In this document: positions 3,283 to 63,253 of the stretch, piece by piece
Layout of the letters: each line of letters opens with the position of its first letter
Numbering within the stretch: the first letter of the stretch is position 1
Assembly: GCF_001584165.1 (NCBI RefSeq)
Contig: NZ_CP013233.1
Location: 2,612,620-2,676,619, forward strand
Reading direction: 5' to 3'
From: Collimonas arenae
GTDB lineage: Bacteria; Pseudomonadota; Gammaproteobacteria; Burkholderiales; Burkholderiaceae_D
DNA: 64,000 nt
Notes under the pieces: generated by a model
Database searches by the model: none
Told to the model about the DNA's origin: nothing
What the model saw: only the letters and a program-made list of their open reading frames with translations
Program-made: the position numbers and the translations under genes

Positions 3283-4673
3283 ATGAAACGTTCTCAAATA
3301 GCCATCGCCGTCAGCGTCGTCGTACTTGCGTGGGTTGCCGTAGTTCCGGGTCTGGTCGGCATGCGCGCCGAAGCCGAACTAGGCAAAATCGATCAGGACG
3401 GGTTGAGCACCAGTTCCCTGCCGATCAGTGCCAAGCTAGCCTCGTTCCAGCGCGGCTGGTTCTCGTCGACAGCCAAGACCGAGTATGCGATTTCAATGGG
3501 TGCACAGCCAATCCGCCTGGCGGTAACGCATCAGATCAATCAGTTCGCCATTCCGTTTTACCGTTGGGCCAAGATCACGCACACAATTGCGCTGGTCGAT
3601 GACAAGGGAGTGGAAACGCCGTTGCCGGTCAAGCTCGACGCCAGCACCGACAAGCTGTTCTTCGGCGGCCTGTCGACCAATGTTGCTGCGCCGGAAATCA
3701 ATTGGCAAAACCAGGAAGGCCTGCATATCGTTGGCAAAAACCTGAACTTGAACTTCCATGGGAAAAGCGGTGAAACGCAAAATACGAACTCAACCTGCCA
3801 TCCCTCAGCGCCACTACTGCGGCCACTCAGATCAACGTCAATCTGAGCAATCTCAATCTGAGCGGCACCTACAAGGATGAAAAGAGCGCCACCGATACCT
3901 GGAAACAGGACGGCCGCATCAAGCTGGACAGTGTCGAGGCAACCAGAAACGGTAACGCCTTCCTGAAACTGCAAAACCTGGTCTTGGATACCGACCTGAA
4001 AGACCACGGCAACAATTTCGATCTGGTCTACCAGACCAAGATCGACAAGAGCCTGTTCGGCGATGCCAATGGCGTTGTCGCCGACGACATCCACTTCGAC
4101 TTTTCCTACCTCAATCTGAACAAGGATGCGCTGCTGAAAATCCAGGCAGCTTCCAAGGCGTTCTATGAAGATATGGCAAAAACCCAGCCAGCTGCCGGCG
4201 CAGATGCTGCCGCAGTTGCAGCGGCGGGTGACGATAGCACCGACGCCAAGCTGGCCCAGCAAAAGGCGCATATGGCCGTGCTGATGCAGCACGCTGGCGA
4301 ACTGGTCGCCAGCTCGCCAGGCTTCCGCATCGATCGCCTCAGCCTGAAGACACCTAACGGCGACGTAGCCGGCAACTTTGAGGTCAACCTGGATGGTAAA
4401 GGCCTGGCGCCGGACGCGTTGAAGGGCGACAACGTGATGGCGCTGCTGAAGGAAAGAATTTCCGGCAAAGGTTCGCTGACGCTCGCGCGTGACGTGTTCC
4501 TCAATGCATTCGAACAGAAAAATGCCGCAGCGCCCGCCCAGCGGCAAATGAAGGAAAACCAGTTGAAGATGTATGTCGACCAAGGCTATATCAAGGACGA
4601 CGGCAAGCAATTGTCGCTGGAATCGACATTCGGTCCGCAAGGTGTCGCCATCAACGGCAAGCGCATCATGTAA
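3283..4673 (+). CDS. DUF945 (YdgA-like) protein, frameshifted
   Basis: The N-terminal part (signal/anchor MKRSQIAIAVSVVVLAWVAV, then FQRGWFSSTAKTEY) and the C-terminal part (reading from about 3780, KYELNLPSLSATTAATQ..., to the stop at 4673) lie in two frames. Together they make a 463-residue DUF945/YdgA-type periplasmic protein; E. coli YdgA is about 500 residues. The break is repaired by one extra A in the AAAA run at 3779-3782 (ETQNTN becomes ETQKYELNL). The family is exported and membrane-anchored with no settled function. The same type of break occurs in many genes of this window, so a sequence error is more likely than a true pseudogene. Confidence 0.75.
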
Positions 4674-4702
4674 CTCCGACTTGCCGAAGAAAGACGAAAA
4701 TC

Positions 4703-4738
4703 AGCCCTGCCCGGTTATTGCAACCCGGCGGGGCTTTT
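4703..4738 (+). terminator. Intrinsic terminator after the DUF945 gene
   Basis: AGCCCTGCCCGG and CCCGGCGGGGCT form an imperfect GC-rich stem with a short loop, followed by TTTT. It lies 30 bases after the DUF945 stop and overlaps the 3' end of the convergent LysR gene. Confidence 0.6.
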
Positions 4739-5632
4739 CTCAGGTGCGTCGTTTTTTAGGCTTTCATCGTTTTCGGTGTACACCTCGACGATTGCATCCG
4801 CCACCGCACGCACCCGCGCCGTGCGGTTCAGGTCGCCATGCAATACCAACCAGACATCATACGCTTCAGTGCGGTGCGGCCAGATGCGCACAAGTTGCGG
4901 ATCGAGATCGGCCATGTGGATCGGCAACTCGCCAATACCAAGCCCTGCGCGCACTCCCTCAATCAGCATCAGGCCGGAATTGACTTCCAGCGCAACGCGC
5001 GCGTTCCCTATCGACTCGCCGCACAAGGCCTCACTCTGGGATGGCGAAATACTGCTCTGATAGATCACCAAATCGTGTCCAGCCAGCGCCGTATCGGGTT
5101 GCGGTTCGCCGTGCGTCTTCAGATAACTTTTAGAGGCGTACAAACCCACTTCGCGTCGCGTCAGGTGACGCGAAATCAGATCCGGACTGCTGGGACGCAA
5201 GGTGCGTACCGCCAGGTCCGCTTCACGCCGGGTCAGGTTCGATAACTGGGTGGAAGTACTCATTACCACCCGGATATCGGGATGCAATGCGCGCAGGCGC
5301 TGCAACGCAAGGAACAGATAGTGCTTGGCCATAGTGTCGGTGGCCGCTACCCGCACCACGCCGCAGAGGCGATCGTCGATGCCCTGCATCTGCCGCTGCA
5401 GCTGATCGGCCGCCAGCTCCATACGCTCCGCCGCGGTAAAGGCCAATTCCCCGGCCGGGGTCGGCACATAGCCAGCGGGCGTACGCAAGAACAGGCGCGC
5501 ACCGAGCGATTGCTCCATCGCGGCCAGTCGTCGCCCGACGGTAGCCTGGTCGACTTGCAGCAAAGTTGCCGCGCCACGCAGGGTGCCGACGCGATAAATG
5601 CCGAGGAAAATCCTGGCGTTATCCCAATCCAT
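4715..5632 (-). CDS. LysR-family transcriptional regulator
   Basis: A 305-residue LysR regulator. The N-terminal winged helix-turn-helix (MDWDNARIFLGIYRVGTLRG, then QVDQATVGRRLAAMEQSLGARLF) is clear and is followed by a substrate-binding domain of about 210 residues. I start it at the ATG at 5632, behind a GGAAAGA ribosome site, not at the upstream in-frame start at 5701. The MDWDNARIFL opening resembles the subgroup that controls divergent transporter or oxidoreductase genes. It is divergent from an MFS exporter gene, with a palindrome between them that is a likely binding site. The effector is unknown. Confidence 0.85.
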   Translation of the reverse strand: MDWDNARIFLGIYRVGTLRGAATLLQVDQATVGRRLAAMEQSLGARLFLRTPAGYVPTPAGELAFTAAERMELAADQLQRQMQGIDDRLCGVVRVAATDTMAKHYLFLALQRLRALHPDIRVVMSTSTQLSNLTRREADLAVRTLRPSSPDLISRHLTRREVGLYASKSYLKTHGEPQPDTALAGHDLVIYQSSISPSQSEALCGESIGNARVALEVNSGLMLIEGVRAGLGIGELPIHMADLDPQLVRIWPHRTEAYDVWLVLHGDLNRTARVRAVADAIVEVYTENDESLKNDAPEKSPAGLQ

Positions 5633-7449: not shown

Positions 7450-7853
7450 ATGAAAATCCACCTCTACGTTCACTTCCATTTCTGGCCCCGTTTTTCGCCA
7501 CAATGATTCTGGCCGGCTGCGTCATGCAACCGCCACAATCCAGCATGCGCAGCAGCTATACCCCGCCTCCGCGCAGCAGCGCACCGGTACAACAGGAAGC
7601 GCCGGTATCGCTGTCTGAATCGCTCGACCCATCCGAACAGATCGTTGACATGCCGCCGCAATCGGGCGGTCGGAAAAACGGCGAGTTATCGGATCTGGTG
7701 GAACGCATGGCGAGGAAAAACGCCTGCACGCCGGCAACTGGCGCGACACTGATCGCCAAGACCAGCGGCGCCGAAACCTACCAAGTCAGTTGCCAGGATG
7801 GCCAGCAGCAGATCTACAAGTGTGAACTGCGGCAATGCCGCATGATGAACTGA
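7450..7853 (+). CDS. Small lipoprotein, frameshifted in the signal peptide
   Basis: From the ATG at 7450 the frame closes after 18 codons, but the next frame carries a perfect continuation. Restoring one C near 7467 gives a lipoprotein signal MKIHLYRSLPFLAPFFATM ending in the lipobox LAGC, then a 110-residue mature part rich in P and S (PPQSSMRSSYTPPPRSS), a middle DLVERMARKNACTP and a C-terminal ISCQDG-like segment with paired cysteines (VSCQDGQQQIYKCELRQC). Full length would be 134 residues. Function unknown; outer-membrane lipoprotein by inference. An alternative is the shorter ATG at 7503, but that leaves no workable signal peptide. Confidence 0.6.
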
Positions 7854-8067: not shown

Positions 8068-8681
8068 TCAAACGGGAGGCGCGGCGACAAACTCCGCCAA
8101 TTGCTCGGCTTGCTCGGAAAATGCCTGCAGCAACGGATGATCTGCAACCTTGACTAAGCCCGGCAGCATCATCTGCGTGAACTGCCACGCCACCGCAACT
8201 GATACACCAGCTTGATTGATGTTGTTGCTGTCCACTGCCAAAGGCTTGCTGCGCAGTTCCTGCTCCAGAGCCTGATAGGCGGCAAACAACTGCCCTGCAC
8301 GCGATCAACCCAAGGTTCGTGTTGTTTCTCGGCCGGCCGCAGGTTGCGCTCATAAACAATCTGCACACTCTTCTCGCAAGCCGCCAGCGACAGGCCGATC
8401 ACGCGCAATACATGCTGGCGCTCGCCAATAGCGGCGGGCATCAGGCTCTTGCGCGGCGCAGCCAGCGCTTCGGCATAATCCAGGATCAGGCTGGATTCCA
8501 TTAACACCTCGCCATCGTCGCATACCAGCGAAGGCGCTTTGACCACAGGATTGATTTGGCGGAATTGTTCGAAGGTGCTGAACACCGAAATAGAACGATG
8601 CTCGAACGGAATGCCAAGCAGTTGCAAAGATATCGCGACACGGCGAACGTAAGGTGAATCGAGCATACCGATGAGCTGCAT
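8068..8681 (-). CDS. Glutathione S-transferase family protein, frameshifted
   Basis: The N-terminal thioredoxin-like domain (MQLIGMLDSPYVRRVAISLQ, with the SPYVRRV active-site region and ESSLILDYAE for glutathione contact) is followed by an alpha-helical domain that continues in another frame from about 8290 (QLFAAYQALEQEL... to VAAPPV). Restoring one base in the CCC run at 8293-8295 gives VQGQLFAAYQALEQEL and a 204-residue GST, the usual length. Glutathione-dependent detoxification or reductase chemistry is the family role; the substrate is unknown. The gene is convergent with the small lipoprotein genes. Confidence 0.75.
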
Positions 8682-9795: not shown

Positions 9796-10354
9796 TTACT
9801 GCACTTTTTCCGGTGTCGCTTCAGTTGTTGGCGCCGCTTCGGCTTCCTTCGGCGCAGCTTCTTCGACGATCTGGTAGGACGGATCGCGCACCCAGCGGCT
9901 CAAATCCTTGCCGATCGCGGCAGCGCTGCGGTCGAGGATCGAGCAGGTTCCCTTGAAGCCGCCGAACATGCCGCCCATCGACCAGCGATTGATCTTGGTA
10001 TGCCGAATGACCTTGCCGCTGGCATCCAGCAAATCGGCATTGACGGTAATGGCTTTCGGCCGCTCCAGGCACCGCCGCCGACGCCCAGTACGTGGGTGAT
10101 TTGCAGGCGCAACAGATTTGCCCGGCGGTATCGCTTCCACTTGGAATGGTGCCGTCGCCGGCTTTATTCATTTTCGCCAGCACCGGGCCAACGCGATGCG
10201 ACAACATGCTTTCGATCTGGCACTCTTCCTTCACCTTGGCTACCACGCCGGCATCGGGATGATAGGTGACAGGAACTTCCAGTAGCGTATTGCCACCATC
10301 GGCAAACGCTGCCGCGCCATAACTCAACAGGCCAATCAGGATTAGTTTTTTCAT
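9796..10354 (-). CDS. Secreted hypothetical protein, two frameshifts
   Basis: The start ATG at 10354 opens a signal peptide (KKLILIGLLSYGAAAFADGG). The frame then changes twice: restoring a base in the run at 10121-10123 gives TAGANLLRLQITHVLGVGGG, and one at 10058-10059 gives AWSGPKAITVNADLLDASGK; the rest reads to the stop at 9796. The repaired protein has 186 residues: signal, a domain with one Cys early (KEECQIESMLS) and one late (FKGTCSILDR), and an acidic A/E/P-rich tail. It looks like a small periplasmic or outer-membrane-associated protein. I do not recognise the family with certainty. Confidence 0.6.
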
Positions 10355-10515
10355 CAAAATTTCCAGGTAGTGAGATAAATATCTTGCGATTGATGCGCGG
10401 CACGAATTGTACCTAATTTACAAGATGACACTAGTTCTTCCTGGAAATAAATATTGGTTTTAAGAAAACATTACGACAATCTGCCCTATCGCGCCCTAGA
10501 GGCGGGATGTTTTGC

Positions 10516-11997: not shown

Positions 11998-12903
11998 ATG
12001 GACAATCACATCAATCGGCGCAGTTTCCTCAGGCTGGCCGGCCTGGGTGGCGCCATCTACGTGTCCGGGCTGAGCGGCTGGGCCAGCGCAGCGGCCAAAC
12101 CGGGAGCGGCCAATGAAGACTTTTTCTTCATTCAGCTATCGGACAGCCACTGGGGATTTGAAGGAGCACCCAATCCCGATGCCCACGGCACCTTGAAAAA
12201 GGCAGTTGCTGCCGTGAACAGCCTGGAGCAGCAACCGGATTTCGTTGTCTTCACCGGCGACCTGACCCACACCACGGACGATCCGCAAGAGCGGCGCAAG
12301 AGGCTGGCTGAATTCAAGGAAATTGTCGGCGCGCTCAAGGTCAAGACTGTCCACTTCATGCCCGGCGAGCACGATGCGTCGCTCGACCATGGTGAAGCCT
12401 ATCAGGAGTTCTTCGGCAAGACGCACTACACCTTCGATCACAAGGGCGTACATTTCATCGTGATCGACAATGTTTCCGATCCGACCGGCGCCATCGGTGA
12501 AGAACAACTCGCTTGGCTCGCCGCCGATCTGGCGCAACAAGCGGCAGACGCCAGGATTGTCGTCTTCACGCACCGACCGCTATTCGACCTCTACCCGCAA
12601 TGGGATTGGGCGACGCGCGATGGCGCCAAGGCAGTCGATCTGCTGATGCCGCATGCCAACGTGACCGTGTTCTACGGCCATATCCATCAAGAAAACCACC
12701 ATATGACCGGCCACATAGCGCATCACGCTGCGAAGTCGCTGATCTTTCCGCTACCGGCGCCCGGTTCGCAACCGAAGCGCACCCCGCTGCCCTGGGACGA
12801 TGCCTATCCATACCGCGGCCTCGGTTTCCGCGAAGTCGTCGCCGAAGTGCCGAAAGCAGAATATGAATTGATTGAATTGCCGGTCAAAAAGGAGGGAGCA
12901 TGA
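11998..12903 (+). CDS. Tat-exported calcineurin-like metallophosphoesterase
   Basis: A 301-residue protein. The N-terminus HINRRSFLRLAGLGGAIYV is a twin-arginine signal. The metallophosphoesterase motifs follow in order: LSDSHWG (D-x-H), FTGDLTH (GD), PGEHDAS (usual GNHD, here with Glu for Asn), FTHRPLF (His) and YGHIH (GH-x-H). A two-metal phosphoesterase acting in the periplasm is therefore likely; the substrate is unknown. I start it at ATG 11998 behind AGGGG. Its TGA overlaps the ATG of the cupredoxin gene (ATGA), so the two are coupled. It is divergent from an ECF sigma gene that probably drives it. Confidence 0.85.
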   Translation: MDNHINRRSFLRLAGLGGAIYVSGLSGWASAAAKPGAANEDFFFIQLSDSHWGFEGAPNPDAHGTLKKAVAAVNSLEQQPDFVVFTGDLTHTTDDPQERRKRLAEFKEIVGALKVKTVHFMPGEHDASLDHGEAYQEFFGKTHYTFDHKGVHFIVIDNVSDPTGAIGEEQLAWLAADLAQQAADARIVVFTHRPLFDLYPQWDWATRDGAKAVDLLMPHANVTVFYGHIHQENHHMTGHIAHHAAKSLIFPLPAPGSQPKRTPLPWDDAYPYRGLGFREVVAEVPKAEYELIELPVKKEGA

Positions 12904-13264
12904 ATACCAATCACAAACGGCGCCTGTTGCTGGCCGGTGCACTCGCAGGCGGGCTGGGCGGTGTCGCTGCTGCCGTGGGCGCGCAATCGCAGGAACGGGT
13001 AATCAAGGTGGTGGCAAAGAAATTTGATTTCACTCCCGGCGAAATCCATCTGAAAAAGAATGTCCCGGTGACATTAGAGTTCACCACGCAAGATGTCGTC
13101 ATGGGTTTCAACCTGCCAGATTTTGCGTTGCGTACCGATATCGTTCCGGGAACCACATCGCGCCTGCGCTTCACGCCCGACAAGGCCGGCGAATTTCCAT
13201 TTCATTGCGATGTATTTTGCGGCTCCGGCATGAAAACATGAGTGGCGTCATCCAGGTTACCTGA
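12900..13264 (+). CDS. CuA-type cupredoxin, frameshifted at the C-terminus
   Basis: A Tat-type or hydrophobic signal (HKRRLLLAGALAGGLGG) is followed by a cupredoxin fold. As given, the frame ends at 13241 just after CDVFCGSGM. Restoring one C at 13229 gives CDVFCGSGHENMSGVIQVT and a stop at 13264, total 121 residues. The restored C-x3-C-x3-H-x2-M matches the CuA site of cytochrome oxidase subunit II and nitrous oxide reductase. The first copper ligand, normally His in DVxHGF, is Met here (DVVMGFNLPDF). It is coupled to the metallophosphoesterase gene. It is probably a periplasmic copper or electron-transfer protein; its partner is unknown. Confidence 0.8.
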
Positions 13265-13276
13265 TAACTAGGACCC

Positions 13277-15635: not shown

Positions 15636-17530
15636 CTATTTTTCGTCAGCTAGCTGCGCGCTTGATTGCTGCTTCACATCTTTCGCCGCCAGCGTCGGCT
15701 TCTTCTGCGCCTGCCATTTTTTTAGATAGGCGTCGATCAACGCTCCACGATAGATTTGAGGTTCCGAATGGGTCACTTCTCCGGGTTCCTTGGCATCCTT
15801 GAAATCTTCCGTTTCCCAGGTCGCGACAAGTGCCTTGGCCTTGTCGAAAGCATCACCGAAAGAACGGCTGCCAGGCAAGGAACGCTCGAAGAACGCCTTG
15901 CCGAAGTAAGTGAAATCGCGGTCGTCGGCGCAGCCGAAGGAAGTCCGGTCGCGGCGTGCGGCTGTCATGACCATCGTGTGTTCATCCTTGAGGGGATCGA
16001 TGAAGCCGCCCGCATAGCAGGCCGACACCACCACTACTTTCCAGCGAATCCCCGACTCGGCCAGTATTTTCCCCAGCTCCTTTGCTTCGAGACCGCGTAA
16101 TCCATGCCGTTCTGGTCCAGCTTGAATTCATGATCCTTTGATCCATGGCTGGTAAGGAACAGAAACAGGATGTCGTTTTCCTTGTCCATCCGGGCAGCAA
16201 TGGCAGACACGCTTTCGCGGATGCTGGTCAAGGTCGCCATCGGCACCTCAGATACTGTTTTGCGACTGTTGATCAAGGCCACCGAACGCCCCTCGGTACC
16301 GTAGTCACGGTCGAACTGCTGGCGGACAAAATCGGTCTCGCGATGAAACACCTCTTGCGAACCGTCGCCGCCTATCGCCAGCAAATACAGATTGATCTTG
16401 CCAGGCTCATGCGGCGCCAGCCCAGCCAAAGTCTTGTCGAGCAAAGCCCGCTGACGATAGATGGCTGTTTCGACGTTTTCCTGAATGTTCCGCAAGGCGG
16501 CCTTATCCTCGAACTGTCCATAGCGCCACGTACCACTATCCTTGGTGCGACCATCCTCTTGCGCCTCGGCGTAGGTAAAAACACCCTCACCGTCATACAC
16601 GCCGTACTTGAAACTGCCTACGTATTCGTTGCCCCCGACGTCCCTGTAGGTACCCTGCCCGTGAAACTTGCTGCCTTTGAACTCGCCTTCGTAGCGGCTG
16701 CCATCCTTGCCGATAAAGGTTCCTTTGCCGACCAGTTCGCCTTTGACAAAAGTACCTTGATACATATCCCCTTGTGGACTGGAAAGCGTGCCGGCGCCTT
16801 CTGCTAGCCAATTGACGAAATCACCGGTGTGCAGCACGCCGCTTTTGTAGCCGTGGACGCCATTGCCGGTGAACTTATCCTTGTCAAAGTCGCCTTCATA
16901 GAACTGCCCGTCCGGCAACTCATAACGGCCTCTTCCCTGATACATGCCATCCACGAATTCACCCGTGAATTTACGGCCGTTCTCGTACGTGAGTTCGCCA
17001 TGACCGTTGTACTTTCCCTTGTGAAAAGCCCCGACATATTCTTCGCCATGCCCGCGCCACTTGCCGTTTCCATCGTACAAGCCGTCGACGAAACCGCCTT
17101 CATACACGCTGCCGTCGGCCAGCTGGTATCGTCCCTGACCGTTGAATTGGTCATTGGCGAACTGACCGACATAAACCGCGCCCTCCGGCTCGACCATGCG
17201 CCCCTGGCCGGTCAGCATGCCGTCCTTGAGAGTGCCCTCATAGTAAGTACCGTTAGTCCATCGGTATTTACCTTTTCCGGACAATAACCCTTTGTCGAAC
17301 TCACCTTCGTACCAGGCGCCGTTAGCCCATTCGATCCTGCCTTGTGCCTGCAGCTTTCCATCCACCAGTTGGCCAAAGTACCGGCCACCATCCGGCGTGA
17401 TTGCGTCGGGAACTGTTGCGGCCGCAACTTGAACGGCGAGCGTTGACGATGGAGAACAGGCGAATACGGCTGCAAGCGCTGCAGCAACGAGCACTCTTTC
17501 GCATTTAACTACGGTGACGTTATTGAGCAT
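15636..17530 (-). CDS. MORN-repeat C13 (legumain-like) peptidase, frameshifted
   Basis: Start at ATG 17530 with a GGGGGAT site and a signal-like N-terminus (LVAAALAAVFACS). About twelve MORN repeats follow (pattern YEGEFxDGxxxGxG, residues about 45-335), then a clan-CD peptidase domain: LYLLAIGGDGSQE, the catalytic His in LFLTSHGS (about residue 462), and the catalytic Cys in VVVSACYAGGF (about residue 505). The frame breaks between His and Cys; restoring one base in the TTT run at 16081-16083 gives SKQKELGKILAESG and a 631-residue protein. C13 enzymes cleave after Asn/Asp. It is probably exported and lipid- or wall-associated; the substrate is unknown. The gene is divergent from an NHL lipoprotein gene. 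Confidence 0.8.
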
Positions 17531-24139: not shown

Positions 24140-25119
24140 CTATCGCTGATATTGATTTACCGCCTGGTTATGCTCATCCAGGCTGCTTGAAAAATGACTG
24201 CTGCCATCGCCCTTGGCGACAAAATACAGCGCGTCGGTTTGCGCCGGATGCATGGCCGCCTCTATCGACTCGGCCCCCGGCAGGGCAATCGGGGTCGGCG
24301 GCAAGCCAGCGCGAGTGTAGGTGTTATACGGCGTATCGGTAGTCAGGTCGCGCTTGCGAATGACGCCTTGGTATTGGTCGCCCATGCCGTAGATCACCGT
24401 CGGATCGGTTTGCAGCAGCATGCCAATCTTCAGGCGGTTGACGAACACGCCAGCGATGGTATTGCGATCAGCGCGGCGGCCCGTCTCCTTTTCAACGATG
24501 GACGCCATGATCAAGGCTTCGTATGGGTCTTGTAAGGCACTGAGGCGTCACGCCCTTCCCAGGCCTGGTTGAGGCGCTTGAGCAGCAGGCTATGCGCCTG
24601 CTTGTATACCTGCATATCGCTGGAGCCTTTGGCGAACAGATAGGTGTCCGGGAAAAACAGGCCTTCCGGCATGCTGTAGTCAGGTGAAATCTTTGCCAGC
24701 AGCTCCGCATCGGACAACGCTGCCGTATCGTGCTTCAGCGACGCTTGGGCCGCTATCGCCTGGCGCATCTGGCGGAAAGTCCAGCCTTCGATCACGGTCA
24801 ACGACTCTTGCGCAAATTCGCCGCGCACCAGTTGCGTCAGCAGGCGTAACGGTGTGGCGCCTGGCTTCAATACATAGCTGCCGGCTTTCAGCTTGCCGCC
24901 TTTACCGGTGGCGCGCGCCAGCAGTTCCAGTAACTCGGGATTGACGCCAACGCCTGCTTCAGCAATTTGTTGCACGGAACTGGCCAGGGTGCTGCCAGGC
25001 TTGATCGTAAAAGGACGCGGCTGACCCGCGTCGAAAACCGGCTGTTTGGCCCAGTAAACCATGCCGCCGGCGGCCACGCCACCCAGCAGGATCAAGCTCA
25101 ACAATAGTTTTTTAAACAA
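24140..25119 (-). CDS. mltG: Endolytic murein transglycosylase MltG, frameshifted
   Basis: The N-terminal half (membrane anchor [19 protein letters not shown], LysM-like region, [14 protein letters not shown]) ends at a frame break; the catalytic half ([46 protein letters not shown]) is in the next frame. Restoring a base in the GGG run at 24525-24527 gives [21 protein letters not shown], a perfect family match, and 326 residues. MltG cuts nascent glycan strands in the inner membrane and sets their length. The start is uncertain: the TTG at 25119 has GGAG nine bases upstream; a TTG at 25134 is also in frame. The gene is divergent from ygfZ. Confidence 0.9.
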
Positions 25120-25241
25120 GACTGGTCGCTCCAAACGGGTTCAGTGGATTCGCAAAACCGGGGTAAGGCCAACGCCTTTTTTGCGACATCACTATAATCA
25201 ACCCAATATGATAATCGCTGAAATGAGATTGCCCACAATTT

Positions 25242-29355: not shown

Positions 29356-29783
29356 TCAACCCGGCTTGATCTTGAGGGCGGCGCGCTGATGCCGGAGGTA
29401 TTTGAATGTACCCATCGCTTTCGCCACCAGGTGCTCGCCGTGCCACAGCTCGGCATCGCAAAAACACATGGTGGTGGATTGATGGAATGCCTTGCCTTTG
29501 GCGACCAGGCGCGCGCCGCTTTGCCCGGCCGGTTGCAGGAAACTGGTTTTCATTTCGACCGTTACCGCCGCTTCGGCTTGCGGGTACAGCGAACGCCGGC
29601 CAGCGCCATGACTACATCCAGCATGGTCATCGACACGCCGCCATGAGTCACTTGCCAGCTGTTCATGTGATGCGGCTGCACAGTCAGCGCTAACTCGGCA
29701 GCGCCGTCGCCCATCGAGACGAACTCGACGCCGAGATGACTCAGGAAAGGGTTGTCGATCGGAAAAATATGCGAAGGAAACAT
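29356..29783 (-). CDS. PaaI-type hotdog thioesterase, frameshifted
   Basis: The first part (NPFLSHLGVEFVSMGDGAAELAL, MNSWQVTHGGVSMTMLDVVMALAG) holds the HGG motif of the hotdog fold active site; the second (AEAAVTVEMKTSFLQPAG to the stop) is in another frame. Restoring one base near 29595 gives VVMALAGRSLYPQAEAAVTVEMK and 142 residues, the usual length. Such enzymes hydrolyse acyl- or aryl-CoA thioesters in the cytoplasm. I start it at ATG 29783; a TTG three codons upstream is also open. Confidence 0.75.
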
Positions 29784-35926: not shown

Positions 35927-35927
35927 C

Positions 35928-37913: not shown

Positions 37914-37915
37914 AT

Positions 37916-40607: not shown

Positions 40608-40631
40608 GAAGCTTGTACAGCTAGCTATATA

Positions 40632-40835
40632 TTAGATAGCTTGAATGTTGGAAGCTTGCTTGCCCTTTGGGCCAGCAGTAACTTCGAACGAAACGCGTTG
40701 GTTCTCTTGCAGCGACTTGAAGCCGCTGGAATTGATTGCCGAGAAGTGCGCGAACAGATCTTCGCCGCCTTCGTCAGGAGTAATAAAACCAAAACCCTTC
40801 GAGTCATTGAACCACTTTACGATACCAGTTGCCAT
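40632..40835 (-). CDS. cspA: Cold-shock protein (CspA family)
   Basis: A 67-residue OB-fold protein. It carries both RNA-binding motifs: KGFGFITP (RNP1) and DLFAHFSAI (RNP2), with a [10 protein letters not shown] ending. It binds single-stranded RNA or DNA and keeps mRNA unfolded. The copy number in the genome is unknown, so this may be a constitutive paralogue and not the main cold-induced one. Confidence 0.93.
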
Positions 40836-42886: not shown

Positions 42887-42895
42887 TACAAACCG

Positions 42896-42933
42896 CAACA
42901 AAAAAGCCGCTGAAGATAGCGGCTTTTTTGTTG
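42896..42933 (+). terminator. Intrinsic terminator after the binding-protein gene
   Basis: CAACAAAAAAGCCGCT and AGCGGCTTTTTTGTTG form a perfect 16-bp stem with a 6-base loop, 10 bases after the stop codon. Confidence 0.9.
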
Positions 42934-42996
42934 GAAAGGCATATTCTATGTCCTTGGCCTGCTCGCCCCCAATTACGCCTCATCAAGCTCTGTCCA

Positions 42997-44298
42997 ATGA
43001 CTGCCCCTGCACCGTCCAGCATCGAATCCGAATCCGTCTTGCGCCACCGTCCGTTCACCCTGTTCTGGGGTGCCCGCGTTGCCTCGACCATCGCCAACCA
43101 GATGCAGATCGTCGCCGTCGGCTGGCAGGTCTATCAAATCACGCACAGTGCGTTCGACCTCGGTATGGTGGGCTTGGTGCAGTTCCTTCCCGCCTTGTTC
43201 CTGGCGCTGGTGGTCGGTCATGTCGCGGATCGCTACGATCGCCGCAAAATTGCCCGTATCTGCCTGTTCATCGAAGGTTTGGCCGCCGCGGCGCTGGCCA
43301 TCGGCAGTTATAACGGTTGGCTGACCAAGGAAGCCATTTTTGGCATCGTATTTATCATAGGCGCGACGCGTGCCTTCGAATCACCGACCTTGCAGGCGTT
43401 GGTGCCCGGCTTGGTGCCGGCGCGCCTGCTGCCGCGCGCCGTGGCCTGGTCAGCCTCGGCCACGCAAACTGCAGTGATTATCGGTCCGGCGCTGGGCGGC
43501 TTTATTTACGTACTGGGGCCAAGCGCGGTCTACACCAGCAGCAGCGTCCTGTTCATCACCGCTAGCCTGCTAGTGGCGTTGATCCGTATCGAGAGCGTAT
43601 TGCCGCGGCGCGAACCAGCTACCCTTAGTTCGTTGCTGGCCGGGATCGCTTTCATCAAGAGCCGGCCAGCAATCCTCGGTGCAATTTCACTCGATCTGTT
43701 CGCCGTATTACTGGGCGGCGCCACCGCACTGCTGCCGATCTATGCGCACGACATCCTGGCAACCGGCCCGCTGGGACTCGGCCTGCTGCGTTCGGCACCT
43801 GCCGTCGGCGCACTCTCGATGGCGATTCTGCTGGCGCGCCGACCGCTCAGCAGGAAAGTCGGCCGTACCATGTTCACTGCGGTTGCAATCTTTGGCCTGG
43901 CGACCATTGTGTTTGCGTTGTCACGTTCGTTCGTGCTGTCGCTGGCGACATTGGCGGTGCTCGGCGCTTCCGACATGATCAGCGTTGTTGTCCGCTCTTC
44001 ATTCGTACAACTGGAAACGCCGGATCACATGCGTGGCCGAGTCAGCGCCGTCAATTCGGTTTTCATCGGCACCTCCAACCAGTTGGGAGAATTTGAATCC
44101 GGCGTCACCGCGGCCTGGCTTGGGCCGGTGCACGCGGTGCTGCTGGGCGGTGTCGGCACGGTGGTTGTGGTGCTGCTTTGGATACGCCTGTTTCCTGCCC
44201 TGTTCGGCCTCGATCGGCTGGTCAATCCGGCAACCGCAATCAATCCAGCGTCGTCCTCATCATCTGCGGCCGCGCCAGGAACCTCTGGAACTACCTGA
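42997..44298 (+). CDS. MFS transporter (EntS/MFS_3 type)
   Basis: A 433-residue transporter with about 12 hydrophobic segments. Motifs: FTLFWGARVASTIANQMQIVAVGWQVY (helix 1), GHVADRYDRRKIA (motif A), and RSSFVQLETPDHMRGRVSAVNSVFIGTSNQLGEFESG, typical of the MFS_3 group that includes the enterobactin exporter EntS. It ends with an A/S-rich tail. The substrate is unknown; no siderophore genes are nearby. I start it at ATG 42997, after the terminator. Confidence 0.85.
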   Translation: MTAPAPSSIESESVLRHRPFTLFWGARVASTIANQMQIVAVGWQVYQITHSAFDLGMVGLVQFLPALFLALVVGHVADRYDRRKIARICLFIEGLAAAALAIGSYNGWLTKEAIFGIVFIIGATRAFESPTLQALVPGLVPARLLPRAVAWSASATQTAVIIGPALGGFIYVLGPSAVYTSSSVLFITASLLVALIRIESVLPRREPATLSSLLAGIAFIKSRPAILGAISLDLFAVLLGGATALLPIYAHDILATGPLGLGLLRSAPAVGALSMAILLARRPLSRKVGRTMFTAVAIFGLATIVFALSRSFVLSLATLAVLGASDMISVVVRSSFVQLETPDHMRGRVSAVNSVFIGTSNQLGEFESGVTAAWLGPVHAVLLGGVGTVVVVLLWIRLFPALFGLDRLVNPATAINPASSSSSAAAPGTSGTT

Positions 44299-44477
44299 GC
44301 GACGATGCTGCGGGCGCCTCGTGGCCTGCAGCATCACGGCGTTCCAGCTATACTTCAAGACCCAACAGCTTGCCCCAATGACCAGCCGCCTCGGCGCAGG
44401 TTGCAGAATGTTGCGGACCGGCGGCCGATGTCGTCAAATCATCATTTATCTTAAAGCCCGCCGCAAAGGAAGTAACA

Positions 44478-45527
44478 ATGCAATATCGTGAACTCGGACA
44501 GAGCAATCTCAAGGTCAGCCTGATCACACTGGGCACCATGACCTGGGGCGAACAAAATACTGAGACAGAAGCGCATGCGCAAATCGACCTGGCGCTGGCA
44601 CATGGTGTCAACCTGATCGATACCGCTGAAATGTACCCGGTGCCCCCGCGCGCCGAGACGCAGGGATCGACCGAACGTTACGTCGGCAGTTGGCTAAAGA
44701 AATCCGGCAAACGCGATCAGGTGCTGATCGCCACCAAGGCCACCGGACCGGCGCGTAAACCGCACAATCCGCGCCATGTGCGCGGCGGCATCAACAATTT
44801 CGATCGTAAAGGTTTGACTGAAGCACTGCATGGCAGCCTCGAACGCCTGCAAACGGATTACGTCGACTTGTACCAATTGCATTGGCCGGACCGCAGCGTC
44901 AATTGTTTCGGCATGCAAAATTACAGCCACATCGCCGACGAAGATACGGTGCCGATTGAAGAGACGCTGACCATCCTGGCAGATTTCATCAAGGCCGGCA
45001 AAGTCCGCCATATCGGCATTTCAAATGAAACGCCGTGGGGCATTGCCCAGTTCCTGCGCGCTTCGGAGAAATTCGACCTGCCGCGCGTAGTCAGCATCCA
45101 GAATCCATACAGCCTGCTCAACCGCACTTTTGAAATTGGCCACTCGGAATTTTCCTACCGCGAGCAAGTTGGCCTGCTGGCTTATTCACCGCTGGCATTC
45201 GGCGTACTGTCTGGAAAATACCTGGATGGCGCAAAGCCTGCAGATGGTCGCCTGACTTTGTTCGAACGATTTAGCCGTTACACCAATCCACAAGTCAACC
45301 GCGTGATCGGCGATTACGTCGCGCTGGCGCGCAAGCATGGATTGGATCCGGCGCAGATGGCGCTAGCCTTCGTCAATAGCCGCGGCTTCTTGACCAGCAA
45401 CATCATCGGTGCGACCACGCTGCAGCAATTGCAAAGCAACCTCGACAGCGTGAACCTCACACTGGATGAGGAAATCCTGCACGAAATCGAAGCGATCCAT
45501 CAGCGCCAGCCGAATCCAGCGCCTTAA
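44478..45527 (+). CDS. tas: Aldo-keto reductase (Tas-like)
   Basis: A 349-residue TIM-barrel reductase. Motifs: LGTMTWGEQNTETEAHAQIDLALAHGVNLIDTAEMY (catalytic Asp and Tyr), VLIATKATG (catalytic Lys), LYQLHWPDR (catalytic His) and the NADPH site VNSRGFLTSNIIGATTLQQL. The central HVRGGINNFDRKGLTEALHGSL and the NCFG segment are characteristic of Tas/YajO-type proteins. It reduces aldehydes with NADPH; the natural substrate is unknown. Confidence 0.9.
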   Translation: MQYRELGQSNLKVSLITLGTMTWGEQNTETEAHAQIDLALAHGVNLIDTAEMYPVPPRAETQGSTERYVGSWLKKSGKRDQVLIATKATGPARKPHNPRHVRGGINNFDRKGLTEALHGSLERLQTDYVDLYQLHWPDRSVNCFGMQNYSHIADEDTVPIEETLTILADFIKAGKVRHIGISNETPWGIAQFLRASEKFDLPRVVSIQNPYSLLNRTFEIGHSEFSYREQVGLLAYSPLAFGVLSGKYLDGAKPADGRLTLFERFSRYTNPQVNRVIGDYVALARKHGLDPAQMALAFVNSRGFLTSNIIGATTLQQLQSNLDSVNLTLDEEILHEIEAIHQRQPNPAP

Positions 45528-45575
45528 GGACAAGTTGAACGTCGCCTTTCTCCATTGGGAGAAGGCGGCGACGCA

Positions 45576-46594
45576 TCAATCCTCAGGACTGACGTCACTC
45601 CAGACCGAGCGTGGCCCGGCTGGCAATATTTCGACCGGACGATCGGCATAACGCTTCGCCAACACCGCACAGACCATCAGCTGTATTTGATGGAACAACA
45701 TCAGCGGCAGCACAACCATGCCGACGGTGTGTCCGGCGAACAGCACCTTGGCCATCGGCACGCCGCTTGCCAGGCTTTTCTTCGATCCGCAAAACACGAT
45801 CGTGATCTCGTCCTCTTTATTGAAACCAAGACGGCGGCTGACAAGCGTTGCAATGGTCAGCATCACAAACAGCAGCAACGCCACCACCGCAACCAGGCCT
45901 AGCAAGGAAAGAAGCGGCAATTGTTGCCATAGTCCTTGCACAACCGCCTCGCTGAACGCCGTGTAGACCACTAACAGGATAGAGCCCTGATCGACTACCT
46001 TGAGAATTACCTTGTGTTTGTCGAGCCAGGTGCTGATCCAGCGCCGCGCGATCTGGCCCGCGACAAACGGCACCAGCAGCTGCAACACAATATTCATGAT
46101 GGAATCGAACGAACCGTGGCTCTGGCCGTGCGCAACCACCACCAAGCCGACCAGCAGCGGCGTCAGGAAGATGCCGATCAGATTCAACGCCGAAGCACTG
46201 CAGACCGCCGCCGGCACGTTGCCGCGCGCCACCGAAGTGAAGGCAATCGACGACTGCACGGTTGACGGCAGCGTACACAAGAACAGGATGCCAAGATAGA
46301 GGTCCGGCGTCACCAGTGGCAGCAAGACCGGTTTGAGCACCAGCCCAAGCAGCGGAAACAGCGCGAACGTCGCCAGCAGCACTGTCAGGTGCAGACGCCA
46401 ATGCAAGGCCCCTGCACCACCGCTTCCCGCGACAACTTTGCGCCATGCAGGAAAAACAAAAGTCCGATGGCAAGCGTCGTGATCAGATTGAAAGAAACAG
46501 CAACCTGGCCTTTGCAGGGCAGAAGACTGGCGATGAGAACGGTTGTAACCAGCAACAACGTAAAGTTGTCAGGCAAAAAGCGCGGGCGAGCCAT
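45576..46594 (-). CDS. Bile acid:sodium symporter family protein, frameshifted
   Basis: Two frames together form a BASS/YfeH-like transporter: RFLPDNFTLLLVTTVLIASLLP and LLFFLHGAKLSREAVVQG, then LHWRLHLTVLLATFALFP, LCTLPSTVQSSIAFTSVARGNVPAAVCSASALNLIGIFLTP and FCGSKKSLASGVPMAKVLF. The break is repaired by one base in the CCCC run at 46409-46412, giving VQGALHWRLH and 339 residues with about ten helices. The family takes up organic anions such as bile acids or keto acids with sodium. I start it at ATG 46594. It is convergent with the aldo-keto reductase gene. Confidence 0.82.
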
Positions 46595-46724
46595 GATTAA
46601 GGGGGCGTGAGCAATGGTTGGAGAAGCGAGGCCCGGATGTAGACGGGGCAACAACTCGCATTTTACGCACGAACCGCGCAAGTATCGACGAATTGTTGGA
46701 TCCCGCCTCGGGAGTGATGGAATT

Positions 46725-48120: not shown

Positions 48121-48974
48121 TTACTTTACCGACGCGGCCGACGTTGCCGCAGCCTGCGGCGGCGCTGGCTGGGCACGCTTGAGAAACAGCAGCACGCCGA
48201 CCCAGTAGGCAACATAGACCAGCAAGCTCATCAACGCGGGCTGTGCGCGATAGCCGGTCAGTGTCGAAACCAGGCTGCCGAAGGTCGTTGTATCGTCAAG
48301 CAGGCGTGAGCTGTCCCAGATTGGATCGATCAGTGTCGGAATCAGGTCCAGCGACATCAGGCGCTCGATACCGGTCAGCAGCAAGCCTGCAGCAAGAAAC
48401 AGCAGGATGATCTCGGTAACCTGGAAGAAACGGCGCCACGAGAAAATCTTTCCGCCCAGCTGCAGCAGGTAAAAAGTCAGGAACGCCAGCGCGAAGCCCA
48501 CCAGTGCCGCCAGCACCATTGCCCCCGCGCTGTCGCCTTGCTGCGCCAGACCGAGCCCATAAAGGAAGATCACGGTTTCACTGCCTTCGCGCGCAATCGC
48601 CAGCGCCGCCAATGCAAATACGCCCACCAATTGGCGCTTTGCAGGTTCTCGGACAATGAAGTTTCCATTTCGCGCTTGAGCGTACGACCATGCTTGCGCA
48701 TCCAGAACACCATCTGGACGATCAGTATTGCAGCCACGATCACCATGACGATCTGGAAGTAATCCTGCGCATCGCCCGACAGCAATTCGCTGAAACCCAG
48801 CAACGCAGCACCGAGGCCGATCGCCGCCAGCAGGCCGACGCCGACGCCGCCCCACAAATACGGCAAGCCACGTCGCGCAGCTTCGCCGCCATGCTTCAGC
48901 CAGGCATGTAAGATACCCACTACCAGCAACGCCTCGACGCTCTCGCGCCAGACAATAAACAATATCTGCCCCAT
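48121..48974 (-). CDS. ftrC: FTR1-type iron permease FtrC, frameshifted
   Basis: An iron permease with two REXXE motifs: RESVE at residues 10-14 and REGSE near residue 130. The frame breaks between them. Restoring one base in the CCC run at 48623-48625 gives LQSANWWGVFALAALAIAREGSE and a 284-residue protein with seven helices. REXXE glutamates bind ferric iron during transport. In the Ftr/Fet system FtrA and FtrB handle ferrous iron oxidation and delivery in the periplasm, and FtrC moves it inward. Confidence 0.88.
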
Positions 48975-49075: not shown

Positions 49076-49410
49076 TTACTTGGCCACAATCACACCCTGC
49101 GCCTGGGTATGGAAATCATCGAAAAATTTATATTCGCCTGGCGACAGCGGTGCAATCACAACAAACGATTCCGCGCCAGGAGCCAACACCTTCTCTTTGC
49201 GCAGCTGCACGCTTTCGAATTCCACCGCAGATTTACCGACGTTATGGATTTCGATCTTGATCTTCTTTCCGGCCGGCACCTCGATGCGAACCGGATTCAA
49301 CACACCGTCTTTCATTTCCAGTTTGAAGGTCGGCAGGTCGGCAGCATTTGCCAGCGTCGCCACCAATAAGATACCGATACCAAAAAAGCCCTCACCTTGC
49401 CTGAAACCAT
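49076..49410 (-). CDS. ftrB: FtrB-type cupredoxin, frameshifted in the signal peptide
   Basis: From the ATG at 49410 (GGAG upstream) the frame is lost in an A run; restoring one base in AAAAAA at 49382-49387 gives the signal MVSGKVRAFFGIGILLVATLANA followed by the mature cupredoxin (TFKLEMKDGVLNPVRIEVPAGKKIKIEI). The full protein has 111 residues. It contains FESVQLRKEKVLAPGAE and the late YKFFDDFHTQAQGVI, as in the cupredoxin-1 domain of FtrB and EfeO. It should oxidise or pass iron in the periplasm. Confidence 0.85.
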
Positions 49411-49463
49411 CGTCACGTTCTCCAAAAAAATCCCGCGATCATTGCAACCGACTGGCAGCGAAA

Positions 49464-50563: not shown

Positions 50564-50853
50564 TCAACGTCGCGGCGGATAAATATCGCGCCCGGCCCGA
50601 TCGATCTGCTGACGCAATTCGCGCCGCTCATCCGGCGACATCCTCGGGCGCGCCGGCCCTCGTTTGGCTCACCATTGCGACCGCGATTTTGCCACTGCTC
50701 ATCTGGCGCTCCACCGCGTCGTGCATCATACTGTGAAGGCGGAGGAGAACCGCGCTGCTGACGCTCTTCGGGCATTCGCTCGGAACGTGCAGATGCGCCC
50801 ATCGCCGCCAATAGCAGCAACAAACAAATACTGATTTTCCGAAACATCATCAT
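50564..50853 (-). CDS. Small secreted Arg-rich protein, frameshifted
   Basis: The start opens a signal (MMMFRKISICLLLLLAAMGA), then an Arg/Gly/Pro-rich region. The given frame continues as unconserved sequence, but restoring one base in the GGG run at 50646-50648 gives RMSPDERRELRQQIDRAGRDIYPPRR and a stop at 50564, 96 residues in all. The PDERR-LRQQI-AGRDIYPPRR ending is a conserved short motif in small exported proteins of Burkholderiales. Function unknown. The gene is divergent from ompR. Confidence 0.65.
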
Positions 50854-51831: not shown

Positions 51832-53171
51832 ATGACAACGGCTAATCGACTGGCCTGGCTAAAAAGTGGTCTGCTTTGGCGGACCTTTTTCATGCTCGCT
51901 TTCCTCATCACGGTCAGCATGGTGGCGTGGGTCGCCAGCTTCAGGATCGTCGAACGTGGCCCGCGGGCGCAGCAGGTCGCCGCTCAGATCATCTCGATCG
52001 TCACCATCACTCGTGCCGCCTTGACCCACTCGGCGCCTGACCTGCGGCGTGAACTGCTGTTCGATCTCGCCAGTAATGAAGGTATCCGCATCTATCCGCT
52101 GGAAGACACCGACCAGATCGATCCGCCGCCAGATTCGACGATCATGCCAGACCTGGAACGCGAAGTCCGCTCCCGCCTCGGCAACCAAACCCGTTTTTCT
52201 TCCAAGGTCAACGATATCGGCGGTTTCTGGGTCAGCTTCAAGATCGATGGCGACGAATACTGGCTGATGCTCGACCGCGATCGCGTCGACCGCAGCTCGG
52301 GCGTTCAGTGGCTACAATGGGCAGGGATTGCATTGGTGCTGTCGTTACTGGGCGCGATGTTCATTTCGACGTTGATCAACCAACCCTTGTCGCGCCTGAC
52401 TGCTGCGACGCGCGCCGTGGCGAAAGGCTTGCGCCGGATCCGTTGCCCGAAACCGGCCCCACCGAAATTGAAGAAGCCAACCGCAGCTTCAATCAGATGG
52501 TCAATGACCTGCAACGCATCGAATCCGATCGCGCGATTATTCTGGCCGGCATTTCACATGATTTGCGTACTCCGCTTGCACGCATGCTGCTTGAAGTGGA
52601 AATGGCAAACCTGTCCGATGATGCACGCACCGGCATGCAATCTGACCTGGCGCAGATGGACGGCATCATCGGCCAGTTCCTGCACTATGCCAAACCGACC
52701 GATACCAGCAGCTTCGAAAAAATCGACATGAGCGAATTGCTCGAAACCGTCATTCAAACGGCGGAACGCCAGGTCGATGTACGGATTCATGCTCACATCG
52801 CCCCCAATTTGCACACCATGGGCGACGTCACCGAACTAAGCCGTGTCTTCAATAACCTGATCGAGAATTCTCGCCGTTATGGCAAGAAGGAAGGCGACGA
52901 TTTCACTGTAATCGACATCGATTGCAGCTCCCGCCAGGACAAGCTGCTCATCAGCATCGCCGATCGCGGCCAGGGCATCCCTGAGGGCGAAATAGATCGC
53001 TTGCTGCGGCCGTTCACACGGCTTGACGTTGCCAGAGGACAGGCAAATGGCTCAGGCCTCGGATTGGCCATTGTCAGCCGCATCGTCAAGCAGCATGGCG
53101 GCAAACTGCGTGTCAGCAATCGCGAAGGTGGCGGTCTGGCGACCCAGATAGAATTGCAGCTGAAAACTTAA
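51832..53171 (+). CDS. envZ: EnvZ-like sensor histidine kinase (RisS-like), frameshifted
   Basis: The N-terminal part (two helices around a periplasmic domain, HAMP start LINQPLSRLTAATRAVAKGL) and the kinase part (IEEANRSFNQMVNDLQRIESDRAIILAGISHDLRTPL with the phosphorylated His in SHDLRTPL, N box NNLIENSRRYG, G boxes ADRGQGIPEGE and GSGLGLAIV) are in different frames. Restoring one G at 52426-52427 gives VAKGLAPDPLPETGPTE and 446 residues. It senses an envelope signal and phosphorylates OmpR. The repaired protein keeps all kinase motifs. Confidence 0.92.
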
Positions 53172-58234: not shown

Positions 58235-59082
58235 ATGAAACTGACCCTGCAAAGCTTGCACGCAGAACATGGCGCCATCAAGCAAATTTCCACCTTGATC
58301 GGCGCAAACGCGGTCAACATTAGCGATACCGGCCACCATGCATGGCGCTGCGATAACGTCGCGCTGCCCGATGAGCAGAAGGCGCAGCTCGACGCCACCT
58401 GTTTCAGCGCCGGCATCGACTACGCGCTACAACCGCCGGACGTCAAACTCGGCGATTTCAAATTGCTGGCGATGGACATGGACTCGACCCTGATCACCAT
58501 CGAATGCATCGACGAAATCGCCGATATGCAAGGCCTCAAACCGCAAGTCGCAGCGATCACTGAAGCGGCGATGCGCGGCGAACTGGAGTTCAACGAAAGC
58601 CTGGCCCGCCGCGTAGCTTTGTTAAAGGGGCTGGACGCTTCCGCCTTGCAACGTGTCTATGATGAACGGCTACAACTATCATTGGGGCGGAACCGATGCT
58701 GGCGGCAATCAAGGCGGCAGGCATCAAGACACTACTGGTATCGGGTGGCTTCACCTTCTTCACCGACCGCATGAAAGCCAAGCTTGGACTGGATTACGCC
58801 CATTCCAACGTACTGGAAATCGTCGACGGCAAGCTGACTGGCAAGGTGGCCGGCGGCATCGTCAATGCCGACGAGAAAAGAAACACCGTTGAGCGCGTCT
58901 GCACTGAGCTAGGCATCACCACCAGCCAGGCGATCGTCATGGGCGACGGCGCGAACGACCTCAACATGATGAAGATCGCCGGTCTCTCGGTAGCTTTCCG
59001 CGCCAAGCCGGTGGTGCGCGCGCAAGCCAGCGTGGCCTTGAATTTTGTCGGTTTGGATGGCATCTTGCCTATATTGGCGTGA
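58235..59082 (+). CDS. serB: Phosphoserine phosphatase SerB, frameshifted
   Basis: The N-terminal half carries LLAMDMDSTLITIECIDEIAD with the nucleophile Asp81 and the acid Asp83; the C-terminal half (in another frame) carries TLLVSGGFTFFTDRM (second HAD motif, Ser) and AIVMGDGANDLNMM (metal Asp). Restoring one G in GGGG at 58684-58687 gives LQLSLGAEPMLAAIKAAG and 282 residues. SerB makes serine from phosphoserine. All four HAD motifs are intact in the repaired protein, arguing against decay. Confidence 0.92.
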
Positions 59083-59598: not shown

Positions 59599-60134
59599 AT
59601 GCCCAACACCATCCTCTTTCCCGTGGTCCGGGCCATGCTTGCCAGCGACATCCCCGCCGTCATGCGCATCCAGGCCGAGTGCTATCCGCCGTCGATGCTG
59701 GAATCCGAGGACGTATTCCGTGCCCGCCTGGCGCTGACGCCTGCGACCTGCTGGATCTGGTCGCGGGCTCCCGATAGCGCTGATGCCTATTTGTTCAGCT
59801 ACCCCTCAAGCAAAGACCTCGTCACCCGCTCGGCGCCCAATTCAAGTTGGCCGCAACGCCGGACTGCCTGTATCTGCACGACCTGGCCGTAGCGCCGGCA
59901 GCACGCGGCAAACGCGCTGCCAATGTCCTGGTCGCTGCTGCATTGGCGCATGCGCGCAGCGCCGGCCTGAACTGGTCTGCGCTGGTGTCGGTACAACAAT
60001 CACAGTCGTTCTGGGGTACGCTGGGCTATCAGGCAACTGACGGGCTGCCGTCGCAAGCCAGGGAAAATCTGGCCAGCTACCAGGTGTCTGCAGATCAGCC
60101 CGATGCGGTGTATATGCTGCAGCAATTGGGTTAA
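59599..60134 (+). CDS. GNAT acetyltransferase, frameshifted
   Basis: The N-terminal part (VVRAMLASDIPAVMRIQAECYPPSMLESEDVF) and the acetyl-CoA-binding part (CLYLHDLAVAPAARGKRAANVLVAAALAHA, FWGTLGYQ) lie in two frames. Restoring a C near 59829 gives DLVTRLGAQFKLAATPDCLYLHDLAV and 178 residues. It shows the usual RimI-like fold with LAVAPAARGKRAA as the CoA loop. The substrate is unknown. Confidence 0.78.
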
Positions 60135-61386: not shown

Positions 61387-61437
61387 GTGTCCTGGACGAA
61401 TTTCTTGAGGAGTTTCTCGAACAACTACTTATCTGAA

Positions 61438-61875
61438 TTACTTGCCTGAACGCGCAGTCTGCGCCAAGTGCTGCACCACCAGCACAAACGGCTTGGTGAC
61501 GGCATCGTCAGTGGTCGACCAGGTGCCGCTGAAAGTATTGCCAACCAGGGTGCCGGCCCACTCGCCAGAAACATCCTTGCCGTTGACCGATTCTTCCATG
61601 ATGACATCGGTATTTTCCGATTCGCCGGCCAGCAGGATCTTGCCGCTCTGTCCGGCAATCACATAGGTCCCCTGGATGCCCTCAGTTGGATCCGGCTTCA
61701 ATTGCAGATGCATTTCGATCTTGGCATCACCCAAGGTGCCGCGCAAGTCGAGCGGTTTGGCGAACAGGTTGACTGCCGCCGGCGCTGTGGCAGCAGTATC
61801 GCCATCCGCCAGCGCCAGGCCTGAAGTCAGGCCCAGCGACAAAGCCAGTGCAATTACAAACTTCCCTGCCATCAT
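61438..61875 (-). CDS. Secreted hypothetical protein coupled to rimO
   Basis: A 145-residue protein with a signal ([22 protein letters not shown]) and a beta-rich mature part (AKIEMHLQLKPDPTEGIQGTYVIAGQSGKILLAGE, SGEWAGTLVGNTFSGTWST). The GTY/GEWAG/FSGTW pattern suggests a small lipocalin-like or MORN-like barrel. I start it at ATG 61875, which overlaps the repaired rimO stop (ATGA). Function unknown. Confidence 0.6.
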   Translation of the reverse strand: MMAGKFVIALALSLGLTSGLALADGDTAATAPAAVNLFAKPLDLRGTLGDAKIEMHLQLKPDPTEGIQGTYVIAGQSGKILLAGESENTDVIMEESVNGKDVSGEWAGTLVGNTFSGTWSTTDDAVTKPFVLVVQHLAQTARSGK

Positions 61876-63253
61876 GCAGCGGCCCACAGGTCATGCGCAT
61901 CGGATGCCGTGATGGTGACATCGACAAACTCGCCAACCATCAGCTTCTTGTGCGGCTCATAGGCGGCTTGACGTAGACCACGCCATCGATTTCCGGCGCG
62001 TCGGCGCTGGAACGGCCAACGCCACCATTGCGGTCGACCGAATCGATCAGCACGCGCATGGTCTTGCCGACCTTGGCTTGCAGGCGCTTCTTGGAAATCT
62101 CTTCCTGCAACTGCATCACGCGGCCACGGCGCTCTTCACGCAGTTCTTCCGGCACAGGATTGTCCAGCGCGTTGGCAGTTGCGCCTTCGACCGGCGAATA
62201 GGCGAAGCAGCCTAGGCGATCGATTTCAGCTTCTTTCAGGAAATCCAGCAGGTATTCGAATTCCGCTTCAGTCTCGCCCGGGAAACCGGCGATGAAGGTA
62301 GAGCGGATGGTCAGGTCCGGGCACATGGCGCGCCAGGCCTGGATGCGTTCGATATTCTTTTCGCCGCTGGCCGGGCGCTTCATGCGCTTGAGCACGTCCG
62401 GATGGGCGTGCTGCAGCGGCACGTCCAGATAAGGTAGCACCTTGCCTTCGGCCATCAGCGGAATGATCTGGTCAACGTGCGGGTAAGGATAGACATAATG
62501 CAGGCGGACCCAGGCGCCGTATTGCGCCGCCAGTTCGCCCAGTGCGGTCACCAGCTGGGTCATATGGGTCTTGACCGGCTTGCCGTTCCAGAAACCCATA
62601 CGGAACTTGACGTCGACACCGTAGGCGCTAGTATCTTGCGAAATGACCAGCAATTCCTTGACGCCGGCCTTGAACAGGTTTTCAGCTTCCAGCATGACAT
62701 CGGCAATCGGCCGCGAAACCAGGTCGCCGCGCATTGAAGGGATGATACAAAAACTACAACGATGATTGCAGCCTTCCGAAATCTTCAGGTAAGCAAAATG
62801 CTTGGGCGTCAGCTTGATGCCTTGCGGCGGCAGCAGATCGATGAAAGGGGCATGTGGCTTCGGCAGATGCTTGTGCACCGCGAACATGACTTCGCCGACC
62901 GCGTGCGGGCCGGTAACTTCCAGCACTTTCGGATGGATCTTCTGAATGATGTCGTCGCCGTCGGCGTCTTTCTTCGCACCCAGGCAACCGGTGACGATGA
63001 CCTTGCCGTTTTCGCTCAGCGCCTCGCCAATGGCGTCCAGCGACTCTTGCACGGCGGCATCGATAAAGCCGCAAGTGTTGACGATGACCAGGTCGGCGCC
63101 CTCGTAAGACTTGGCAGTTTCATAACCCTCTGCACGTAACTGGGTCAGGATTTGTTCGGAATCGACCAGTGCCTTGGGGCAACCAAGGGAGACGAAACCG
63201 ACTTTAGGGGCTATAGCTGGCGCAGCAGGCGCTGCGGGAATGACGTTGGACAT
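61872..63253 (-). CDS. rimO: Ribosomal protein S12 methylthiotransferase RimO, frameshifted near the C-terminus
   Basis: A MiaB-like radical SAM enzyme. The N-terminal UPF0004 domain has [17 protein letters not shown] and [10 protein letters not shown]; the radical SAM motif is [17 protein letters not shown] (CxxxCxxC). As given, the frame ends at 61940 with an odd tail; restoring one base at 61962-61963 gives [35 protein letters not shown] and a stop at 61872, 460 residues, completing the TRAM domain. It methylthiolates Asp88 of S12. The repaired stop overlaps the next gene's start. Confidence 0.95.

Follow-up and report, generated by a model that had tools for sequence, protein, structure and literature searches.

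Collimonas is a genus of soil bacteria. For the Collimonas arenae DNA analysed here, the original prediction had described seventeen single-base losses, all in the same direction, which break sixteen genes, and had attributed them to homopolymer under-calling. The question raised is whether these genes are really broken, are decoded across two reading frames, or are whole in the cell and were damaged only in the assembled sequence. The window, by which we mean the whole stretch of 64,000 nucleotides, covers positions 2,612,620-2,676,619 of one contig of 4,723,987 bases, with dnaA in forward orientation at contig base 1 and a GC content of 56.8% over 20 stretches of the same genome. For one window protein, 14 homologous loci were found, 8 at 75-82% identity, all in Collimonas, and 6 at 44-50%. 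Collimonas relatives were used as comparison genomes, among them G003, G008, G009 and G012.

Frame breaks in the window

ORFs of the relatives, taken from orthologous stretches, were aligned to the window with a frame-aware aligner which permits one-base losses and gains. Sixteen of the 17 sites were recovered as one-base losses against intact relative ORFs, with 2 to 7 relatives per site, and no stop codon was observed in the assigned-gene alignments once a frame change was permitted. The aligned positions mostly agreed with those predicted and were a few bases off at 16101 (predicted at 16082), 52433 (52426) and 49391 (49385). The affected genes are listed below.

3283..4670, plus strand: DUF945-family gene, break aligned near 3779 (2 relatives, 91% and 66% identity; PF06097 in the intact relative)
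7450..7853, plus strand: small lipoprotein-like gene, suspected break between 7456 and 7503 (from N-termini only; no Pfam family)
8071..8679, minus strand: glutathione S-transferase-like gene, break aligned near 8296 (7 relatives; PF13417)
9799..10378, minus strand: gene without known family, two breaks aligned near 10060 and 10120 (2 relatives per break)
12897..13261, plus strand: cupredoxin/COX2-like gene, break aligned near 13228, close to the C-terminus (4 relatives; PF13473)
15693..17525, minus strand: MORN-repeat and peptidase C13 gene, break aligned near 16101 (5 relatives, 60-64% identity; PF02493, PF01650)
24143..25138, minus strand: mltG, break aligned near 24527 (4 relatives; TIGR00247 above cut-off in the intact relative)
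29359..29781, minus strand: hotdog thioesterase, break aligned near 29594 (4 relatives; TIGR00369)
45579..46613, minus strand: SBF-like transporter, break aligned near 46407 (4 relatives; PF13593)
48139..48972, minus strand: EfeU/FTR1-type iron permease, break aligned near 48622 (4 relatives; PF03239)
49079..49456, minus strand: cupredoxin-like gene, break aligned near 49391, close to the N-terminus (3 relatives, short N-terminal flank; PF13473)
50567..50851, minus strand: 96-aa gene without known family, break aligned near 50645-50659 (2 relatives, G008 and G003)
51832..53165, plus strand: RisS/EnvZ-like sensor kinase, break aligned near 52433 (3 relatives; PF16524; EnvZ model below cut-off)
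58235..59079, plus strand: serB, break aligned near 58683 (3 relatives; TIGR00338 above cut-off)
59599..60128, plus strand: GNAT acetyltransferase, break aligned near 59828 (3 relatives, in the filtered scan two for and one against; PF00583)
61875..63263, minus strand: rimO, break aligned near 61962, close to the C-terminus (3 relatives, 98% identity; TIGR01125 above cut-off)

As judged by these family models, the predicted names serB, mltG and rimO are right. The name envZ was not upheld: the protein scores 273 bits against an EnvZ cut-off of 415 and has a RisS periplasmic domain, and the gene looks RisS-like from its sequence. Two side observations were made along the window. According to the intact relative, the gene at 15693-17525 pairs MORN repeats with a peptidase C13 (caspase-like) domain. 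ARAGORN reports a tRNA-Arg (ccg) at 32040-32131, within a long gene on the opposite strand; it is absent from Rfam results at the gathering score and is probably false.

The remaining site, at 7467, received no call from the aligner, and one over-long relative ORF even yields a gain at 7463. By eye, an ‘MK’ start leads into a lipoprotein-like signal peptide that is read in the next frame, the shift being that of a loss, and this reading of the N-termini makes a break plausible. Among the recovered sites, the flank or the gene itself is short at 49391 and 50645. The filtered scan gave one relative for and two against at both 50645 and 58683; since the unfiltered listing has the loss in the other relatives, we take these counts to come from shadow ORFs which displaced the true genes in the filter.

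Over the whole window the filtered scan returned 26 events, with 14 losses and 6 gains having more relatives for than against. Gains at 22316, 42984, 50885 and 59118 have a single supporting relative each. Besides the listed sites, two relatives supported gains at 5652 and 33906 and a loss at 51826. The first sits between two conserved blocks of G003 and G009, and the other two lie just outside ORF starts, at 33896 and 51832; from their location we judge all three to be over-extended ORF starts and not breaks within genes. The predicted contrast in density, with more breaks at 3-16 and 46-62 kb than at 16-46 kb, is weak: computed after the fact, the chance of some 30.3-kb stretch holding at most 2 of the 17 sites is 0.025, and a gap of at least the size of 29595-46410 has a chance of 0.08.

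Direction of the calls and breaks elsewhere on the chromosome

When single-base errors were placed in 43 intact genes, the aligner called 150/150 losses as losses and 150/150 gains as gains. Since every placed loss and gain was called correctly, the one-sidedness does not come from a bias of the method. The test genes had been pre-selected as free of frame change and gene ends were avoided, so that the 150/150 clean untouched copies follow by construction and do not measure false calls. False calls were instead measured with relatives as targets, support from two or more relatives being required: there were 0 losses and 2 gains in G003, 3 losses and 1 gain in G012, and none of either in G008 and G009. 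With one supporter being enough, majority-supported losses and gains were 9 and 5 in G003, 6 and 8 in G009, 1 and 4 in G008, and 8 and 1 in G012. At six places matched to the outside stretches described below, with one relative compared, losses and gains were 1 and 2 for G003 and 3 and 4 for G008. Single-relative events thus arise in relatives in both directions, and for this reason trust was placed only in events seen with two relatives. Besides its 3 two-relative losses and 1 gain, G012 (a single contig of 5.6 Mb; loci L119, L122 and L016-L020) carries 2 single-base losses in rRNA copies, and it may share the same fault at a lower rate.

Two homology-free measures were set aside. A coding-frame hidden Markov model was too noisy for counting breaks and was not used as evidence: it reported 67 losses and 19 gains in 400 kb of the present genome (17 and 1 in the window), 13 and 8 in 140 kb of G003, 16 and 9 in 140 kb of G012, and 12 and 9 in 120 kb of G005, the 20-kb stretch L044 (15 losses) being the only one to stand out. 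The genomes cannot be told apart by the fraction of bases that lie in long ORFs, the value for the present genome (0.735) lying within the range of the relatives (G003 0.782, G012 0.707, G005 0.812); the window itself has 0.682.

Elsewhere on the chromosome, six 20-kb stretches (120 kb) out of 20 fetched, chosen along the chromosome before counting, were compared with G003 and G008. They contained 26 losses and 0 gains with two supporting relatives, distributed as 3 in L036, 4 in L040, 16 in L044, 1 in L047, 2 in L050 and 0 in L054; the flanks are weaker at a few of them, such as L050 14192 and L044 13006. The total was 37 events, including 6 losses and 2 gains with one relative and 3 others that were not itemised. 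The densest patch seen, in L044, includes purL (L044:5124-9134), with six apparent one-base losses in one gene, the counterpart of which in a relative is a 1334-aa phosphoribosylformylglycinamidine synthase. The single loss of L047 falls in malate dehydrogenase; both are housekeeping genes. The spread is uneven, with a dispersion index of 8 that is driven by L044 and of 1.25 without it. Break density in gene-covered DNA is about 2.7 per 10 kb in the window and 2.6 in the six stretches, or 1.2 without L044. An error density rising toward the replication terminus was considered and discarded: L047 adjoins the window yet has one break, and no simple gradient is seen.

Losses in rRNA operons and sequence context

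The genome carries three rRNA operons (L111, L112 and L113, with L113 being copy C). They differ among themselves by single-base losses at 9 sites, each in a G or C run of 3-6, which amount to 10 copy-sites: one in copy A, two in copy B and seven in copy C. At 8 of the 9 sites the base is kept in all six operon copies of G003 and G008, while the ninth is variable among relatives. No private extra base was found in any of the three copies. The 16S gene of copy C is without four G, one of which is also absent from copy B. One loss of copy B lies within a tRNA gene, which scores 56.5 bits compared with 63.7 in the other two operons, and the same copy has one two-base loss outside G/C runs. The losses thus also strike untranslated DNA, as a long-read consensus artefact requires, and this comparison outside coding sequence is the deciding one.

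At about 80% identity, gaps in DNA alignments could not be placed precisely enough to identify the run concerned at each coding site, and run context was therefore counted over a distance of 8 bases. This was done for 41 coding breaks, namely 15 window sites (without 7467 and 49391) and the 26 outside, with expectations from 2000 draws. A G/C run of at least 3 was present within 8 bases at 21/41 breaks (51%, expected 22%), leaving 20/41 without one, and runs of at least 4 at 15% (expected 3%), while A/T runs of at least 3 showed no excess (22%, expected 24%). Slippery XXXYYYZ heptamers were not enriched, with 1/41 sites against 0.98 expected. The losses are genome-wide, patchy and biased to short G/C runs. 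Consensus under-calling is supported and agrees with all tests, and the original attribution to homopolymers is refined to short G/C runs, with about half of the coding breaks near one.

Origin of the missing bases

The comparisons make it very highly probable that the seventeen apparent breaks are errors in the consensus of a long-read assembly, in which single bases were dropped at many places of the chromosome. Relatives are intact at the 16 recovered window sites and the 26 outside sites, where all events are single-base losses in one direction, and G/C runs are enriched around them. Because losses of this kind also strike rRNA genes, as well as genes in other parts of the chromosome, a sequencing loss is indicated and not broken genes. 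In the living cells the genes are almost certainly whole. No new biology is needed for any of this, which is an ordinary artefact. The long-read consensus would leave out one base at a time, for the most part a G or a C and in many cases within a short run, and patches of poor local read depth or quality may cause the unevenness. The platform was presumably PacBio RS II, with HGAP3 and Quiver.

Features of the genome are consistent with such a source. The C. arenae genomes Ter10 and Ter282 are of 4.7 Mb with 56.8% GC; each strain was sequenced on a single SMRT cell, and the assemblies, made with HGAP3 and Quiver, were rotated so that dnaA comes first (PMC4690342). The present genome is alike in size, GC content and dnaA start. 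Illumina was used beside PacBio reads and is reported for all five new strains, the sections concerned being silent on whether it corrected the final contig (PMC4690342). Table 1 of that paper gives Ter10 a coding share of 78.4% and a mean CDS of 834 nt, the lowest and shortest among its six strains, compared with 85.4% and 899 nt for Ter282. Because both values are lower in Ter10, the strain is probably Ter10, Ter282 being less likely. The words ‘frameshift’ and ‘pseudogene’ do not occur in the main text of PMC4690342, and literature searches on frameshifts in Collimonas Ter10 and on PacBio indels gave no papers.

Several observations count against an artefact: the 20 coding breaks without a nearby G/C run, the two-base rRNA loss outside such runs, the uneven density, the use of Illumina beside PacBio reads in the published study, and the CDS count of Ter10, which in Table 1 is slightly below that of Ter282 (4436 vs 4473; PMC4690342), where fragmentation alone might add CDSs. 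The preference for G/C runs is also what slippage would produce in a mutator strain, or in genes undergoing real decay into true pseudogenes. This origin is nevertheless very improbable. The lesions are not mixed as far as stops and gains are concerned, with no extra stops in the broken-gene alignments and no two-relative gains inside genes; the 20 run-free sites count against slippage as well; serB, rimO, purL and malate dehydrogenase are all struck; rRNA copies are hit at sites where, with one exception, all six relative copies keep the base; and 16 of the 26 outside breaks are concentrated in one 20-kb stretch. There is similarly only a very slight chance that part of the losses is real, in a strain that stays viable although its short G/C runs lose bases, those in rRNA copies and purine synthesis genes included.

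The single direction of the breaks would also fit programmed or widespread ribosomal frameshifting, building whole proteins from shifted frames. We regard this as close to inconceivable, as slippery heptamers occur at the expected frequency, the relatives hold the same genes in a single open frame, so that the shift is not kept, and equal losses occur in rRNA; rRNA and tRNA not being translated, recoding cannot explain them. Overlapping genes or over-long ORFs could be mistaken for broken genes: the homology-free coding-frame model makes calls of this sort in relatives as well, at 1.0 to 3.5 losses per 20 kb over seven sets, and the three two-relative window calls at 5652, 33906 and 51826 were judged to be of this kind. 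At 16 sites, however, both frames are covered by one intact protein of a relative, and wherever the scan filter was applied, half or more of the aligned residues are identical on each side of the break; it is extremely unlikely that the listed breaks arose in this way.

Taken as consensus errors, the losses make pseudogene calls, gene absences and rRNA copies from this genome unreliable, and 16S comparisons are affected. Scaled up roughly from the densities in gene-covered DNA, 1.2 breaks per 10 kb without the densest stretch and 2.6 with it, the whole genome would have between several hundred and about a thousand breaks. Comparison of a genome's own rRNA operons among themselves offers a cheap test for this artefact that needs no reads. 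The pattern resembles what the Kastor paper describes for long-read assemblies, where errors were likewise mostly false deletions fragmenting genes and tied to homopolymers, and where the Illumina assembly compared had far fewer errors. For the long-read draft Pss508 of that paper, most errors are described as associated with A/T stretches and about half as many with G/C, whereas here the bias is to short G/C runs.
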